A stretch of 20,014 nt of DNA from a virus. Shown here piece after piece: positions 6,301 through 11,117 of the stretch (its first letter is position 1; each line of letters opens with the position of its first letter). Location: positions 1 to 20,014 of IMG/VR virus record IMGVR_UViG_3300014720_000246; one strand, given 5' to 3'. The position numbers and the translations under genes are program-made. The notes under the pieces were generated by a model that worked only from the letters and a program-made list of their open reading frames with translations, was not told the origin of the DNA and ran no database searches.

Positions 6301-6515
6301 CAGCTAACGCTATGAATCCTAGTAGAGGGTTTCTAGATCAGATGAAACGATTTTTACAACTAGATGGAGGACGTTATTCACCTCAATCCAATCAACCTGT
6401 AGTTATAAACAATAACAATAATACATCAACACAAACAAATGTGCCAGTCCCTGCCCAACCGAGAGTAGATTCCTCGTTCTCTCGGTATGGGCAGAGTAGA
6501 AGCTCCTTCTTTTAG
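3348..6515 (+). CDS. Tail tape-measure-like / hub protein (gp29 position)
   Basis: A 1055-aa protein with an AGAAGG ribosome site 4 bases before the ATG. Order of parts: charged helical N-terminus (residues 1-120); Pro/Ala linker with three SGPAP copies and an APAP run (about 150-215); a hydrophobic Ala-rich helix, AAPAAIVAAPFVAA (about 225-240); a helical segment; then three related helical modules (about 477-540, 566-635, 680-760) separated by Ala/Pro linkers that twice contain PQAEVT. A stretch near residues 805-840 (DGPGTETSDSIPA then LSDNEYILPAKAAKAIG) is a signature often seen in phage tape measure proteins. The C-terminus is coiled-coil-like, ending in an Asn-rich tail. Its position right after a frameshifting chaperone pair supports the role of setting tail length. 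T4 gp29 has 590 residues, so this is much longer, largely through the linkers. Confidence 0.75.
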   Translation: MDNKEKTPLAALLRKPAQPVDDAPVKAQPKQKPESQKTPIERDITSIKKDIVEVKKNTKVLADIAKKVDKESKKAKPATANIPSQSTPLTGDVNSDLLKVLGSIDKKLSADAAERKKTQGGPDKGETSFLGSLVDAIADISVGRGRPGTPPTVPPGTRPPVTVPSGPAPSGPAPSGPAPAPAPKPAPAPAPAPAPAPAPAPAPAPAPRPPVPVPPAAPGLLGQAATLAAPAAIVAAPFVAARQQIEKIKADPNASGLEFNPYAQVVRGEAKTIGQAGSQNKNRAVGQVFSNTIQAAIDSDLSDEELYDQYGRDRKQLKEWVAKSKPGQTYDINTSAPAVANRQAEKLIGVETPATPAEVDVGAPPPVTGMESAFVPTPPTPPPVQQIPPAEGRVESSFTGVTPEDREEAKKRGLRGEVGAQSAATARVARRQVQVQDALSEVNNMPMAAPSEAPVVEPATAPATAPAAAPARAGITVEEHSAKIGNVDGGQIENHPNYKRYYNNILMGRDPKKDANAHLTAQRIATSQVKADIAREKEYKQAPAAALAPQAEVTSTQPTPAGPTSISAQITSTFDAGALREKDPETHAKYVARVRQLEREMLAENEKQGKLSSADTERAKARAQEQAIREFSEPAANVGAASRTGTMTSSRGGDIAKISTENTDLRDQANSGSTAPAAASSRTEMKIPEAVLNEKNPKVFQEYQRRKNELRRQIADQLNKEALERKDTSSATRRENDRFADRQAQLQAYNEFKDKFDAAPISAEPAPQAEVTPSREAQGGTVISPDESKSNNRFSEGGLIDGPGTETSDSIPAVNRDTGQPILLSDNEYILPAKAAKAIGKQTLDAVAEKFADGGSVGFLEKVSKRAELLQQKRREEIPDLQDNTKFDYYINQAKAQQEIFDKLGITSDEGEQKVDSLLDRFLDNQKANMMLGYNRDKITGAEDLLKENDQEYKALQQEASSLLGDKMKEFTQILKEQERSTVSAANAMNPSRGFLDQMKRFLQLDGGRYSPQSNQPVVINNNNNTSTQTNVPVPAQPRVDSSFSRYGQSRSSFF
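3840..3966 (+). repeat. Short tandem repeats coding a Pro/Ala linker
   Basis: Three perfect direct copies of AGTGGACCTGCACCA occupy 3840-3884 and code SGPAP x3. They run into a degenerate series of GCTCCA/GCACCA/GCTCCT hexamers to about 3966, coding APAPAP. Such repeats can expand or shrink by slippage in frame, which would alter linker length in the tape-measure-like protein without a frameshift. Confidence 0.85.
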
Positions 6516-7423
6516 TCGTCGTTTGCTAGCTTCGCGAAGTAGGACATTGACTCATCATCATCGTCAAAGTTAACTTCTTCGCGTTTAACAGGAGCAGCAG
6601 GTTTAGATTGAACAACTGCTTTAGGTGCAGAACGTTGAACTACAGGTTCATCCTCAACTTCGATTTCCTGGGTGCGAACTTCACCTGCAAGAACCGTGTT
6701 AAGTCTGCGCTGCAGTTCCTCATAGGTCTTGAATCGCTTAGGATCAACAAACTCTTTCAATGAATGTTGTTGTTCCCAGATTCGTGCGATTGCTTCATCT
6801 GAAGATGCAACAGGACTTGGGCGATCAAATTCGCTCTTGTCGTAGTTGCGATAGCCCTCAACCTTACGAATCTTCAGCTTGAAGTTTGCACCATCCCAGA
6901 AATCAAACGGGTTGATAGGTTGCTCGTCTTGAAACTGAGGATCAGTCACATCTTTGATCTTGTCAAAGATTTTCTTGCCATATTTGTACAAGAACACCTT
7001 TCCTTCATTCTCGGGATGAGCAGGATCAGTAACAACAAGAATGTTGCTGATATAAGTCAGCTTACGCTTGCGCTCACGAACCAGATCCTTATCGGATTCA
7101 TTGCCACTGTTCCACAGCTTGGTATTCATATCACTCACAGGATCAGGCAATCCAATCGTAGTAAGTGAATCTTCAATATACCACTTGCCCGTAGGTCCTT
7201 TGAATCCATGATTCCATACACGAACCCAGGGAAGATCCTCACCTTTGGGAGGAGGTAAGAAGCGAATGACAGCGTAGCCATTGCCCACTTTATCAACTTC
7301 GGGTTGCCAGAAGCGATTGTCCTCAGAGGACGATGCGGGGGTATTAATCTTTTCGACTTCCTTCATCAGTTTGTCGAAGCCGCCGCGGGATTTTTTAAGG
7401 TCAGCAAGAGATTGAAATGACAT
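6512..7423 (-). CDS. 32: Single-stranded DNA-binding protein gp32
   Basis: A 303-aa protein (T4: 301). The basic N-terminus (SLADLKKSRGGFDKL) fits the cooperativity domain. The core follows T4 gp32 closely: GNGYAVIRFLPPPKGED, NHGFKGPTGKWYIEDS, SNILVVTDPAHPENEGKVFLYKYGKKI, WDGANFKLKIRKVEGYRNYD. The tail is acidic (VNFDDDDESMSYF), as needed in T4 for docking replication partners such as gp59. The protein coats ssDNA in replication, recombination and repair. Odd point: the segment holding the zinc ligands of T4 gp32 (one His, three Cys) has no Cys here and reads GLPDPVSDMNTKLWN, so zinc is probably absent. GGAG lies 7 bases before the ATG. The stop overlaps the convergent tape-measure stop by 4 bases. 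Confidence 0.95.
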   Translation of the reverse strand: MSFQSLADLKKSRGGFDKLMKEVEKINTPASSSEDNRFWQPEVDKVGNGYAVIRFLPPPKGEDLPWVRVWNHGFKGPTGKWYIEDSLTTIGLPDPVSDMNTKLWNSGNESDKDLVRERKRKLTYISNILVVTDPAHPENEGKVFLYKYGKKIFDKIKDVTDPQFQDEQPINPFDFWDGANFKLKIRKVEGYRNYDKSEFDRPSPVASSDEAIARIWEQQHSLKEFVDPKRFKTYEELQRRLNTVLAGEVRTQEIEVEDEPVVQRSAPKAVVQSKPAAPVKREEVNFDDDDESMSYFAKLANDD

Positions 7424-7650: not shown

Positions 7651-7884
7651 TTACTCCTTGTCCTTACGTTTAACAGATTGTTTTTCGACCGCAATATAGG
7701 GCCAGTGAGAAACTTGTGTAGCAATCATTGCTTGTTGCTGTGCCATCTTTACCATATAATGTTGTGTTGCCTTAAGTGCATCTGATAGAGTCAAATAGCG
7801 ATCATGCAGATCAATTAGTTCTTTCTCTAGGTTATGCATCTTTCTTGCAAGAACATCAACATCATATTCCTCGTAGGATTCCAT
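7651..7884 (-). CDS. Small coiled-coil protein, unknown function
   Basis: A 77-aa protein, MESYEEYDVDVLARKMHN, with heptad-like spacing of Leu/Met/Ile through residues 10-55 (LEKELIDLHDRYLTLSDAL), then a Gln-rich stretch and a basic tail (KQSVKRKDKE). AAGGA lies 8-10 bases before the ATG. It overlaps the end of gene 59 by 23 bases and its stop codon forms part of the next gene's ribosome site. Its place between gene 59 and gene 32 hints at a replication-linked accessory role, but nothing in the sequence shows this. Confidence 0.75.
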   Translation of the reverse strand: MESYEEYDVDVLARKMHNLEKELIDLHDRYLTLSDALKATQHYMVKMAQQQAMIATQVSHWPYIAVEKQSVKRKDKE

Positions 7885-8455
7885 TATACTTTTCCTTATC
7901 GATCCTTACAAAAGGGCTATATTTTCGAATCAAACGAGAAATATCAGGCCACACAAATGTTTCTTTAATGTCTTGATCAAACCTATCACAAAACTTACAC
8001 AGCTTGTTTAGTATCACAAGGGTTTCTAGTGACACTTCCTTGCTCATGTAAGACCTAATTATATATGGATGTTCGCCAGTTTGACAATAGAAAACTTTTT
8101 CTTCATCGAACTTTTCTATATTCATCTCCGATAGAATGTGTGCCATGTCTCGCTTGAAGATGTATGATAGCGACTCGATACGCTTCTTCCATTGTGTGTA
8201 AACGTCTTGTGCTTGCCCATCGTATACGCCTCCCCACTTGTTGCCTGCAACAAAATTGGACACAAGAAAGTTAACTAGTTCAGAATCAGAGTATTGTTTT
8301 GCTAACTTTTTGTACATCAACTCATGTTTCATAAATCTATCACGTGACGCCTTTATGCGTCCTTTATGTTTGATCACATCATATGAGTCAGTAGTAAAGT
8401 GTAGCTTTAGTGCAAGATAGTAACGATAGGCCTGAAAGGCGTCCATTTGCATCAT
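7862..8455 (-). CDS. 59: gp59 DNA helicase loader (gp41 assembly protein)
   Basis: A 197-aa protein (T4: 217). It matches the T4 gp59 plan: an N-terminal YRYYLALKLHFTTDSYDVIKHKGR block (T4 has YKLYLMIKQH...YDVIKYN), a basic RDRFMKHELMYKKLAKQYSD segment, then LVNFLVSNFVAGNKWGGVYD (T4: LIFISNLVANQDAWIGDISD). In T4 the protein binds forked DNA and gp32-coated ssDNA and loads the gp41 replicative helicase. The first ATG overlaps the gp33 stop (ATGA), so translation is probably coupled; a second ATG follows at once. The gene order 33-59-(two small genes)-32 matches T4 apart from the small insertions. Confidence 0.9.
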   Translation of the reverse strand: MMQMDAFQAYRYYLALKLHFTTDSYDVIKHKGRIKASRDRFMKHELMYKKLAKQYSDSELVNFLVSNFVAGNKWGGVYDGQAQDVYTQWKKRIESLSYIFKRDMAHILSEMNIEKFDEEKVFYCQTGEHPYIIRSYMSKEVSLETLVILNKLCKFCDRFDQDIKETFVWPDISRLIRKYSPFVRIDKEKYNGILRGI

Positions 8456-8706
8456 AGAGGTAGTTTGCCGGATTTTCGTTTGAAATAGTTTAGATCTTCT
8501 GCTTCACATTGAATCTTCTCTTTGAGAGACTTATTGATCAGCGACTTAACTGATTCTACATCAATGTCTGCATCTTCACAATATTCAATAACTGCCTCCA
8601 TGTAAGATAGTCGCTTGCTAGTCACTAGTTGCTCAATATGTAAAGAAAATTCATTTGCGGTTGTAAACTTCTTTGAAATGATGAACTGATCTGTAATGGG
8701 TTGCAT
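8452..8706 (-). CDS. 33: gp33-like late transcription coactivator
   Basis: An 84-aa protein from ATG 8706 (MQPITDQFIISKKF), which follows the previous stop by one base. A longer start at 8742 overlaps that gene and has no ribosome site. Features matching gp33 of T4-like marine phages: a central LSYMEAVIEYCEDADIDVESV block, LINKSLKEKIQCEAEDLNYF, and a short hydrophobic end KLPL. gp33 links RNA polymerase with gp55 and the gp45 clamp at late promoters; the C-terminus is the clamp-binding part in T4. T4 gp33 is 112 aa. Position directly before gene 59, as in T4, is the strongest support. The exact TATAAATA boxes in this window fit a working gp33/gp55 system. Confidence 0.8.
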   Translation of the reverse strand: MQPITDQFIISKKFTTANEFSLHIEQLVTSKRLSYMEAVIEYCEDADIDVESVKSLINKSLKEKIQCEAEDLNYFKRKSGKLPL

Positions 8707-8707
8707 A

Positions 8708-9100
8708 TTACTTGAATAGAATGAGAGCCATGAATACGGCATTTACGATGAAACCTGCACCAATGGTTAGGACATTTACAGTATCTTTCAGAATGGCTGC
8801 TCGAACAAAGAAGGTAACCATCGCTGCCCAGATAAACAACACCAGATCAACAGGTGGCATCTTATCAGTAACACCTGCCATGACTGCAAGGAATGTAGGA
8901 ATCAATGCAGCATGAAGAAGAACCAATCCAATCCATCCAATAGATTCTGCTGTGCTGGGTACAAGTTTATTGTCTAGAAAGTATTTAATACAATCTTTGA
9001 TCCTTCCCAACCTCTCAATCCAACTAACCTTTGTAGAAGATGTGTTTTCCAATTTGGGTGACTCTTCGTTTTTGCCATTTGGGGTTGACATAGTTTGCAT
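8708..9100 (-). CDS. Membrane protein with three segments, candidate holin
   Basis: About 130 aa (start at 9100, or 9091 giving MSTPNGKNEESP; neither has a good ribosome site). After a soluble charged N-terminus of about 45 residues come three hydrophobic segments: IGWIGLVLLHAALIPTFLAV, VDLVLFIWAAMVTFF and a final VLTIGAGFIVNAVFMALIL ending FK. It overlaps the SleB-type hydrolase gene by up to 77 bases, and small multi-span membrane proteins beside a wall hydrolase often form holes for it. No family signature recognised, so holin is inferred from context. It could also be an antiholin or a superinfection protein. gp33 follows one base after its stop. Confidence 0.65.
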   Translation of the reverse strand: MQTMSTPNGKNEESPKLENTSSTKVSWIERLGRIKDCIKYFLDNKLVPSTAESIGWIGLVLLHAALIPTFLAVMAGVTDKMPPVDLVLFIWAAMVTFFVRAAILKDTVNVLTIGAGFIVNAVFMALILFK

Positions 9101-9554
9101 GATAGAATAGTACGTCCTCAGTGATAATACTTAAACGAAATCCTTCAAGGAGAACCTTACGGGCGACTGCTTCGGATTCCTTGTAGGTTGCTTCATGAAT
9201 GGGTCTGACTTTTGTTTTTTGTTCACAATACCAGCTGAACTGGCATATAACTCTATTGTACACGATGTTCTTTTCGTAAACAACAGCGCAGATATCTTTT
9301 GGAAATTTATTTGATTTGACACGATTTAATGTTACTTGTGCAACTGCAACCTTTCCTTCGAATGGTTCAGTTCCTGCTTCATAATAGATGTTTTTGGCGA
9401 GGCATTCAAGCTCCTTTTCACGTTGCGCCATCGTAATAAACTTGGGATCTCTTTCTTCAGACAACTCTCTAAACTTGTAATCTACAAGCGTTTCAAAGTA
9501 GTCGTATAAGAAGTATCCTAGAACACATATAAAAACTATCCTTAAAAAAGTCAT
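9024..9554 (-). CDS. SleB/CwlJ-type cell wall hydrolase, probable endolysin
   Basis: A 176-aa protein. Residues 3-20 form one hydrophobic segment (FLRIVFICVLGYFLYDYF) that may be a signal-anchor, so export through Sec is likely. The rest matches the Hydrolase_2 (SleB/CwlJ) domain: CLAKNIYYEAGTEP with probable catalytic Glu59, VAVAQVTLNRV, FPKDICAVVY, CQFSWYC, and VLFYHANYVNPKW with a final IGKHIFYK. The family cuts the glycan backbone of peptidoglycan as lytic transglycosylase-like enzymes. In a T4-like phage this would replace the T4 e lysozyme. The ATG overlaps the stop of the preceding membrane-protein gene (TGATG); GTG 9557 is an alternative start one codon earlier. Confidence 0.85.
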   Translation of the reverse strand: MTFLRIVFICVLGYFLYDYFETLVDYKFRELSEERDPKFITMAQREKELECLAKNIYYEAGTEPFEGKVAVAQVTLNRVKSNKFPKDICAVVYEKNIVYNRVICQFSWYCEQKTKVRPIHEATYKESEAVARKVLLEGFRLSIITEDVLFYHANYVNPKWQKRRVTQIGKHIFYKG

Positions 9555-9901
9555 CACTTCTCATTATTTGATTGTCCCGAGCGGGTTCGATTAACAACAT
9601 CAATCAAGTCCTCTTTATTCTTATCTGCATTAGAGAATACCCGGGCGATTAAAGATAACAGGCCCCATGATATGAAACCTATACAAAATCCAAACATCAA
9701 TTGCATTTCCCAATTAGAGGTCATTTCTAGCCATTGTAATAGAGGCGCCGCGAAGATGATACCCGTTCCTGTTGATACTCCACCTCTTAAGCTAGCATCC
9801 ATCATAGAGATAGGTTTTAAGAATGCCATGTTAGTCAAGTTACCTAGTAGGCCTCCGACTCCTGATAAAATCTTTGCGAGTATAAAACCTGAATCTGGCA
9901 T
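9554..9901 (-). CDS. Small membrane protein, candidate holin
   Basis: A 115-aa protein with AGAGG 6 bases before the ATG. Hydrophobic segments: a weak one near the N-terminus (FILAKILSGVGGLLGNL), then VSTGTGIIFAAPLLQWLEM and MQLMFGFCIGFISWGLLSLI, followed by a charged soluble tail (NADKNKEDLIDVVNRTRS). The layout of two or three segments plus a charged C-terminus next to an endolysin gene is typical of holins. It is translationally coupled to the hydrolase (TGATG). I do not recognise the family; the gene at 8708-9100 is the competing candidate and one may be holin, the other antiholin. Confidence 0.7.
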   Translation of the reverse strand: MPDSGFILAKILSGVGGLLGNLTNMAFLKPISMMDASLRGGVSTGTGIIFAAPLLQWLEMTSNWEMQLMFGFCIGFISWGLLSLIARVFSNADKNKEDLIDVVNRTRSGQSNNEK

Positions 9902-9970
9902 AAGAACCTCTAATTGTAGTTATAAGTGGCGCTGATTGGGTAATAAGGACAGCGCCGAAACCCCAGGAGT

Positions 9971-10012
9971 TTACGCTGCTAGGCGATACGCTCCAAAATA
10001 TGCATCGTTTGC
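9971..10012 (-). other. tmRNA tag reading frame
   Basis: Thirteen codons and TAA: resume codon GCA at 10012, giving ANDAYFGAYRLAA; with the alanine brought by the tmRNA the added tag is AANDAYFGAYRLAA. The bases just before the resume codon, AGTAAAT, match the usual AGTAAA(C/T) that sets the resume point. The AND start and LAA end match bacterial tags, and the C-terminal LAA is the ClpX recognition end. Confidence 0.92.
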
Positions 10013-10121
10013 ATTTACTTCTATGCTTCTTCGGGCGAGTAGTCCCCCCCCATCGGCTTTCACATTGCCGGGTTGTCCATCTTCCTACTTATTGCTCTGT
10101 CGAAACCATGTCTCGCCCATC

Positions 10122-10186
10122 ATAAGCATACTTAATTCCTCACCTTGTGGAGTCTCATATTTCAGAGCCGATCCTAGTATGCTTAT
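10122..10186 (-). repeat. Inverted repeat in the tmRNA intervening segment
   Basis: A perfect 11-base inverted repeat, AGTATGCTTAT (10176-10186) and ATAAGCATACT (10122-10132), encloses 43 bases. It joins the end of the acceptor piece to the start of the coding piece in the precursor and continues the direction of the acceptor stem. It probably presents the segment for removal by tRNA-processing nucleases, leaving a two-piece RNA. Confidence 0.85.
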
Positions 10187-10254
10187 GGTGGACGAGGGGG
10201 GAATCGAACCCCCGTCCAGAACACTTTTTGGTTAACTTCAAACAACCATTGGTA

Positions 10255-10262
10255 TATTTATT
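10255..10262 (-). promoter_or_regulatory. Possible late promoter of the tmRNA
   Basis: The minus strand reads AATAAATA, one mismatch from the late box TATAAATA. Late transcripts begin about 6 bases past the box, that is near 10249, just where base pairing predicts the acceptor piece to begin. The same 8-mer occurs inside genes at 12158 and 15008 with no sensible target, so the box alone is weak evidence; the spacing is what supports it. It overlaps the end of the oxygenase gene. Confidence 0.45.
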
Positions 10263-10809
10263 CGTTCACGTAATGCAAGTATGTTCCCATAATGTACTTG
10301 TTTGATGATACAGGTGGCCTAGCTTCATGAGGAAACATCCACAAAGGAGGAAACATTAGAACACGACCTGCTTTAGGTTTCACAGAGATTCCAAGTGTAG
10401 GAAAGGTGGTTTCGCCACCCTCCTCTACATCATTGAGGTAACAAAACACAACTAGAAATCGTTTTGATGATCGATTGTCCCCCACATCTACATGAAGATC
10501 AAACCGCTCGTTTTCATTGGGCCTATATCGCTTGATGCGGATTTCCTCAAAGCCCTGAAGCTGTGGAATTATAGGAACCTTTACATCATTGAAGTAAGAT
10601 GTAGCCCCCGAGTAAGATAGGCCTGCGAACATCTGAGAGATATCCTGCCAGGGTTCTAGCTTAGTGATGTTTAGCTGTTCGAACTTATAGATTTCTGATT
10701 CTACGGTTTCATGTTCTAGTGAACTTTCATAGCGAGCAATGATCGAATCACAGGTCTCTTTGTCTAGTATGTCATCATAGACCTTGATGTAGTCAGTCAA
10801 ATAAATCAT
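10258..10809 (-). CDS. 2OG-Fe(II) oxygenase, prolyl-4-hydroxylase-like
   Basis: A 183-aa protein from ATG 10809, which shares a base with the previous stop (TAATG) and has AAAGG upstream; longer starts run into the preceding gene. The iron site is visible: H106-x-D108 in FDLHVDVGD and H161 in FPHEARPP, with K171 in NKYIMGTYLHY placed to bind 2-oxoglutarate. YLNDVEEGGETTFP and PKAGRVLMFPP are typical of the P4H family. These enzymes hydroxylate proline or other residues using O2 and 2-oxoglutarate; in T4-like marine phages they are common and their target is unknown. The tmRNA begins about 10 bases past the stop. Confidence 0.9.
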   Translation of the reverse strand: MIYLTDYIKVYDDILDKETCDSIIARYESSLEHETVESEIYKFEQLNITKLEPWQDISQMFAGLSYSGATSYFNDVKVPIIPQLQGFEEIRIKRYRPNENERFDLHVDVGDNRSSKRFLVVFCYLNDVEEGGETTFPTLGISVKPKAGRVLMFPPLWMFPHEARPPVSSNKYIMGTYLHYVNE

Positions 10810-11117
10810 TAGAGCCCTTTCTCTGTTACAGTGCGAAGATGTGTTCCTGCAGTTAAAAGACAAGTCATCTTTCCATCTAAAGAACTTAGAGTAATTGTAA
10901 AATTGCCTTTTTGCGTTTCTTTCCACACAACCATAAGCAGATTTTCTGCTTTTCCAATCATAACGGGATATTCCTTATGAGTGTTTTGAAGTTCTTTGAT
11001 CACATCGGGTGTCTCAGCACAGTGCACTGATGTGGGCACTTCAATATATTTAAGCCCTGTTTGCGCCTGTGCTGTCAGCGAAAACATCGTCAAGATACTT
11101 AGGATTGTTTTTTTCAT
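10809..11117 (-). CDS. Small exported protein, unknown function
   Basis: A 102-aa protein with a clear signal peptide: MKKTILSILTMFSLTAQAQT, cleavage likely after AQA at residues 17-19. The mature part of about 83 residues has two Cys (VHCAET and MTCLL) that could form a disulfide in the periplasm, and beta-type stretches (NLLMVVWKETQ, NFTITLSSLDGK). No family recognised. It starts inside the end of the nuclease gene (68-base overlap) and couples to the oxygenase gene by TAATG. Confidence 0.75.
   Translation of the reverse strand: MKKTILSILTMFSLTAQAQTGLKYIEVPTSVHCAETPDVIKELQNTHKEYPVMIGKAENLLMVVWKETQKGNFTITLSSLDGKMTCLLTAGTHLRTVTEKGL

Follow-up and report, generated by a model that had tools for sequence, protein, structure and literature searches.

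The window (the whole stretch of 20,014 nucleotides analysed here, an IMG/VR virus record) encodes proteins of T4 type, namely gp32, gp59, a gp33-type coactivator (PF16805), tail tube, baseplate hub, head closure, DNA end protector and a PhoH-like protein. An earlier sequence-only reading had assigned the DNA to a T4-like phage, and the presence of gp32, gp33, gp59, tail-tube and baseplate genes on the same contig bears this out. The best full-length match of gp32 among isolates shows 57% identity, which indicates a phage of an uncultured lineage; the nearest isolates among the matches listed are mostly cyanophages, together with Pelagibacter phage HTVC008M. The host may be a freshwater bacterium, although this is a guess from the beta-type RNA described below and from the relatives of the phage. 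Among the genes listed in Table 1, the 115-residue protein is probably holin-like, judging from its position before the cell-wall hydrolase. The use of the latter (the endolysin) as a search bait returned a single near-identical contig.

Between the oxygenase gene and these lysis genes, the minus strand of the window carries a complete circularly permuted tmRNA gene (10247-9928), as seen with Rfam models, ARAGORN and the anatomy of the sequence. Its order from 5' to 3' is acceptor piece, 67-nt spacer and coding piece. The model RF04321 (tmRNA_permuted) matches 10247-9971 (-) over its full length with 120 bits (cut-off 47, E 2.4e-23), and RF01850 (beta_tmRNA) matches 10303-9903 (-) with 93.8 bits (cut-off 84); the remaining clan members, the alpha and cyano models among them, score lower, RF01850 being the best of the clade-specific models, among which a comparison had been proposed. 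ARAGORN independently calls a permuted tmRNA* at the same place, its printed tag having two extra residues upstream of the GCA resume codon. The two models and ARAGORN agree with the earlier proposal of a CCA-bearing acceptor piece preceding a coding piece with a tag. All seven pairs of the acceptor stem can form, G3:U70 included, and the ANDAYFGAYRLAA frame has its resume codon, its stop and a hydrophobic -AA end.

Table 1. Coordinates of the permuted tmRNA gene and of neighbouring features in the window
Feature	Position	Strand	Remarks
2OG-Fe(II) oxygenase, upstream gene	10258..10926	-	PF13640; ends ~10 nt before acceptor piece
Candidate late promoter AATAAATA	10255..10262	-	7/8 against T4-type late promoter TATAAATA; 7 nt upstream of P2 strand; uncertain
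Acceptor piece	10186..10247	-	P2 3' strand 10247-10242; GAAG of k-turn-like motif; T arm; CUCGUCC 10196-10190; A73; encoded CCA 10188-10186
Spacer (IVS), 67 nt	10119..10185	-	Closing stem 10185-10176/10132-10123; UGAU linker 10122-10119, then G1; from sequence and fold
Acceptor stem 5' strand GGGCGAG, start of coding piece	10112..10118	-	G1 = 10118; partner CUCGUCC 10196-10190
P2 strand ACAACC of coding piece	10071..10076	-	Partner GGUUGU 10247-10242 in acceptor piece; UGG just before gives GGA, the other k-turn-like half
Pre-tag hairpin CGGC/GCCG (P3 of PK1)	10054..10070	-	9-nt loop; followed by a second, G-rich hairpin
Tag reading frame	9971..10012	-	Resume codon GCA 10012-10010; ANDAYFGAYRLAA; stop UAA 9973-9971
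Post-tag hairpin GGCGCUG/CAGCGCC	9928..9956	-	Kept with different sequence in several relatives
Putative membrane protein, 115 aa, downstream	9554..9901	-	No family match
Cell-wall hydrolase/endolysin	9024..9557	-	PF07486, PHROG 938
gp33-like late-transcription coactivator	8452..8742	-	PF16805
gp59, after gp33-like gene	7862-8455		PHROGs 269 and 224 (gp33-like gene, gp59 and gp32 together)
gp32, after gp59	6512-7423		PHROGs as for gp59

The pairing of the two pieces was analysed in an alignment of 24 diverse phage relatives from which the spacers had been removed. In the acceptor stem, T stem, P2 and inner P2 helices 96.6% of the cells are paired, with changes on both sides at 17 of the 26 pairs; the covariation score was reached by none of 500 shuffles, and slid partners pair in only 38-50%. 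P2 (helix 1), which is formed between the pieces, is 98.3% paired with both-side changes at four of five pairs, while in the acceptor stem, also formed between the pieces, U:G is invariant at columns 63/72 and compensatory changes occur at three further pairs. The structure was partly derived from the aligned sequences themselves, which gives some advantage to the unslid version; however, this bias cannot explain the covariation, because the stem changes in a compensatory manner from GGGCGAG/CUCGUCC to GGGCCUG/CAGGUCC and GGGGAUG/CAUCUCC. The claim that acceptor stem and P2 pair across the pieces is thus well founded. The two outcomes that would have told against the sequence-only reading, namely no covariance-model match and no covariation in related phages, were both looked for, and the reverse was found in each case. 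The same reading had also placed a tag-side pseudoknot across the two pieces, and this part is not supported: complementarity between the 3' end of the coding piece and the 5' tail of the acceptor piece is at shuffle level; in 13 of the 14 genes it does not exceed the best shuffle out of 40, and in one it is slightly higher. The pre-tag hairpins, the post-tag hairpin and the putative tag-side pseudoknot all lie inside the coding piece. Most relatives in the clade of the window gene have the same two pre-tag hairpins with different sequences, and the loop of the post-tag hairpin may form a pseudoknot with an upstream GGG within the coding piece.

Scans for sigma-70 promoters and terminators at the tmRNA gene gave nothing above shuffles. 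The exact TATAAATA motif occurs in 6 of 113 phage upstream regions against 1.3 in shuffles, and matches of at least 7/8 occur in 28 against 20; the enrichment is weak, and the motif is to be taken as a lead only. On the opposite strand, an antisense ORF of 99 residues (9936-10235 (+), ...VDEGGIEPPSRTLFG) overlies the tmRNA; it is probably spurious and represents an annotation hazard.

The spacer, which is expected to be absent from the mature RNA, is always closed by a covarying hairpin. In 110 distinct phage spacers the bases next to CCA form a stem with a stretch whose end lies four bases upstream of G1, with 94.3% pairing over eight inner positions against 39-62% in slid controls, and all pair types occur. 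Of these 110 spacers, 101 have UGAU or UAAU as the linker, and the loop side is hypervariable among phages. Bacterial spacers have the same hairpin, shorter and 88% paired. Phage spacers measure 44-120 nt (median 79) and those of the bacterial sample 23-48 nt (median 28), although one phage collecting pattern demanded a long spacer and the bacterial pattern a short one. The set collected through gp32 gives the same picture despite these patterns, with spacers of 29-120 nt, most of them above 60.

Related genes are widespread in phages. A DNA pattern with a long spacer matched at least 120 viral stretches, and among 80 viral contigs obtained through gp32 about 30 have a permuted tmRNA upstream of gp32; when the count is restricted to contigs extending 5 kb or more upstream of gp32, it gives, by hand, 21 of ∼31. 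Two large records lacking a tmRNA near gp32 have one elsewhere. Altogether ∼150 related phage genes were collected, 149 of which were parsed. All 149 have G3:U70 and CCA, although the parser is biased towards both, and CCA was demanded by one of the patterns used for collection; CCA is also encoded in all 30 genes found through gp32. For comparison with bacteria, a BLAST search of Burkholderiales genomes with the DNA of the window gene returned mainly the conserved T arm, often from one-piece genes, and a covariance model of the phage genes (R1) was therefore used instead. Few candidates were scored per genome in the R1 search, which is no census, and the limited bacterial sample is weighted to Rhodocyclaceae.

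Phage P2 helices take two main forms. The form of the window, GUNNGAAG opposite GGAC, is present in 61 distinct phage genes but absent from all 49 distinct bacterial permuted genes; Herbaspirillum has GAAG in P2 and lacks GGAC. In the window, GAAG/GGA stands at 10239-10236 with 10079-10076 (columns 16-19 and 109-112 of A1) and is invariant in the phage-only P2 class, and the tandem G.A layout gives this P2 a putative k-turn-like appearance. The bacterial type of RF01850, with its short spacer and its P2, describes sampled genes and is no formal criterion; the window gene departs from it with its 67-nt spacer and phage-only P2. In addition, the G+C-rich 3'-terminal hairpin of RF01850 was not found in the window gene: where the final hairpin of the model is aligned, several positions do not pair.

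A tree was built from 69 phage and 12 bacterial genes (deduplicated, 172 columns); it is short and has many open forks. The window gene is nested in two starred clades, of 5 and 15 rows, that contain phage genes only, while the phage genes overall do not form one clade, since the phage/bacterial label takes three changes on the tree. The same general tmRNA type is found in Synechococcus phage BUCT-ZZ01 and in Stenotrophomonas phages, and the type therefore does not track the host. The gene is a member of a widespread tmRNA family that evolved inside phages and has features unseen in the bacterial genes sampled.

The tags vary widely in this family. ANDAYFGAYRLAA is identical in two relatives (L153 and L264) and occurs in no sampled bacterium, and similar tags of 13 residues (ANDAFYGEDRLAA) are found in phage genes of the other P2 form. 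Phage tags end in LAA or similar with the stop intact, and many are identical to bacterial tags, for example ANDERFALAA and ANDESYALAA. Degradation of the tagged products by ClpXP is an assumption. Very long tags of 23-28 residues, e.g. ANADTFDFSAMSFTGNTVSGKSKVALAA, occur in L165, L184, L185, L189, L198, L233 and others.

Two-piece tmRNAs in phages are already known as a kind (PMC9004378, PMC11915505). One has been described in the T4-like marine phage Melnitz, where it was placed with alphaproteobacteria, and another in phage Mosig; 53 were counted among phage genomes in a 2021 phage survey, 50 of them from marine or aquatic samples (PMC9004378). The RF04321 model has been described with a list of 79 bacteriophage tmRNA sequences (PMC11915505). 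In the literature searched, which lacked most subscription papers, neither the enlarged hairpin spacer nor the P2 form seen only in phages is described, and no literature on freshwater T4-like phages with a two-piece tmRNA was found. Mosig and Melnitz (PMC9004378; MT647606), which are marine T4-like phages, resemble the window in having a permuted tmRNA, and in Mosig it likewise lies just upstream of a gp33-type gene with gp59 further on. However, the Mosig gene is of alpha type (RF01849, 67.6 bits) whereas that of the window is of beta type, with another P2, a longer spacer (67 versus 44 nt) and another tag. Because the alpha-type gene of Mosig has the same placement upstream of the gp33-type gene, the locus is common to phages with different tmRNA types. 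Mosig also has a manA RNA motif (RF01745, 64 bits; L084 7380-7587) ∼3 kb downstream of its tmRNA. A glutamine riboswitch, as reported for Melnitz, has no Rfam match in the window.

Betaproteobacterial tmRNAs (RF01850; Azonexus, Thauera, Herbaspirillum, Oligella) share the permuted order, the acceptor stem with G3:U70, the T arm, the tag layout and the hairpin spacer with the window gene. They differ in that the spacer is 23-48 nt long as against 44-120 in phages, the GAAG/GGAC motif of P2 is missing in 49 of 49 and CCA is often incompletely encoded (10/44, against all phage genes, with uneven sampling). The Menderavirus genes of Stenotrophomonas phages IME-SM1, Moby and Yut2 are likewise permuted, with encoded CCA, a 56-nt hairpin spacer and GUAUGAAG in P2; however, they lie within a tRNA cluster beside ribonucleotide reductase and have the tag ANDDSYTVRIAA. 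The host order of these phages is expected to have one-piece tmRNA. The genes of Yut2 and Moby were located at L083 4972-5345 and in L333; in the Moby record the tmRNA is unannotated, and a hypothetical CDS of 37 residues (CPT_Moby_106) is called over the coding piece. Standard one-piece tmRNA (RF00023) has the same tRNA-like domain and tag function, but its gene order is unpermuted and without a spacer.

Taken together, these observations support the interpretation of a phage-encoded permuted tmRNA in a T4-like phage, and the gene is probably a functional beta-type permuted tmRNA resident in a large T4-like phage lineage. Its likeliest role, we infer, is to supply or supplement trans-translation of the host as host RNA is degraded and ribosomes stall on broken messages. 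By analogy with established tmRNA biology, the RNA would be transcribed together with neighbouring phage genes, and the spacer hairpin would stack on the acceptor stem, offering both spacer ends to host enzymes. Host RNase P would cut before G1 (10118), and a 3' endonuclease with trimming would expose the encoded CCA, after which the two pieces would be held together by the acceptor stem and P2. Host AlaRS would then charge the RNA through G3:U70, and host SmpB and EF-Tu would bring it to ribosomes stalled on broken mRNAs, where translation would restart at GCA, append ANDAYFGAYRLAA and end at UAA; the LAA end would direct the product to host ClpXP/ClpAP, to the presumed benefit of the phage. 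No SmpB was found in 17 records of phage relatives, including three complete isolate genomes, and host SmpB is therefore probably used.

The sequence-only reading regarded the gene as a captured RNA, and capture holds only as a distant event. A recent origin from the ssrA gene of a betaproteobacterial host, still matching that of the host, would agree with RF01850 being the best clade-specific model and with the many phage tags that equal bacterial ones. It is nevertheless improbable: the window gene lies deep in starred all-phage clades, which excludes recent capture from any sampled bacterium, and neither its P2 form nor its tag was seen in the bacteria sampled, while the hosts of the related Synechococcus and Stenotrophomonas phages are not betaproteobacteria. 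Ribosome rescue is thereby shown to be a long-standing gene of a wide T4-like virus lineage rather than a stray host capture. A decaying pseudogene or a chance similarity can be practically dismissed, being refuted by the compensatory changes throughout, which 0/500 shuffles matched, and by the intact tag.

Two further readings concern the use of the RNA. It has been proposed for Melnitz that the phage tmRNA is mainly a means of attack or recycling that marks proteins of the host for breakdown during early infection (PMC9004378), and tagged proteins could be sent to another fate by an altered tag such as ANDAYFGAYRLAA. In the window, however, the neighbours of the gene are lysis and late-transcription genes, which do not form an obvious early block. 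Furthermore, tmRNA acts on stalled ribosomes and is not known to select host proteins, so that this role is unlikely. A decoy that poisons trans-translation of the host has a precedent in the tag-less tmRNA-like form of phage DS6A, for which such an effect has been reported (PMC11915505). The DS6A form has no tag reading frame, whereas the tag frame, resume codon, stop and pre-tag structures of the window gene are intact and kept across the lineage, and a decoy is very improbable here. Supplementing host trans-translation thus remains the preferred role, and the natural variants of the family (new tags, different P2, full CCA and enlarged spacers) offer tests of what two-piece tmRNA needs for processing and function.

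The spacers of some relatives contain ORFs. About ten distinct spacers of phages carry an ORF of 22-24 codons that takes up the whole spacer and stops at the UGA of the UGAU linker, and a Shine-Dalgarno sequence for it lies in the 5' strand of the stem; a directed search gave further spacer ORFs of up to 32 codons. The predicted products are single-pass membrane peptides, e.g. MNDNLNSLAIGVVIVLIVFALVLL. Such ORFs of 22-32 residues with a Shine-Dalgarno sequence were observed in L160, L172, L181, L165, L198, L177, L186 and L206 and further in L047, L184, L277, L282, L291, L295 and L302, usually ending at the UGA of the linker. Between L160 and L181, pS is 0.66 and pN 0.06, which is not so in other frames and indicates purifying selection on the spacer protein; other pairs are weaker (L184/L291, pS 0.29 and pN 0.27). 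The spacer of the window itself has no convincing ORF and no PF09791 domain. Whether T4-like phages keep a permuted tmRNA lineage of their own that has turned the discarded spacer into a cargo site, with a hairpin flush against the acceptor stem closing it in every case and a complete tiny gene inside it in some relatives, is evenly balanced. If so, one transcript in these relatives would give either a microprotein or a mature tmRNA, and the embedded membrane microproteins, if translated, would represent a gene lying within the portion of a structural RNA gene that is removed.

Longer ORFs were also observed. In L053, L279, L288, L290, L294, L296-L298, L304 and L305 an ORF of 61-63 residues (MPVDMYYYTESEWNRLGCGPLPPER...), with no Pfam match, runs from the spacer on through the coding piece. 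In L041, L042, L050, L054, L056 and L066 an in-frame translation of the spacer gives a PF09791 Oxidored-like domain (PTTCCGKGCEYCVW..., E 1.3e-8). The ORF of L066, with 64 residues, begins within the acceptor piece, the T loop of which is unusual (UGCAAAU).
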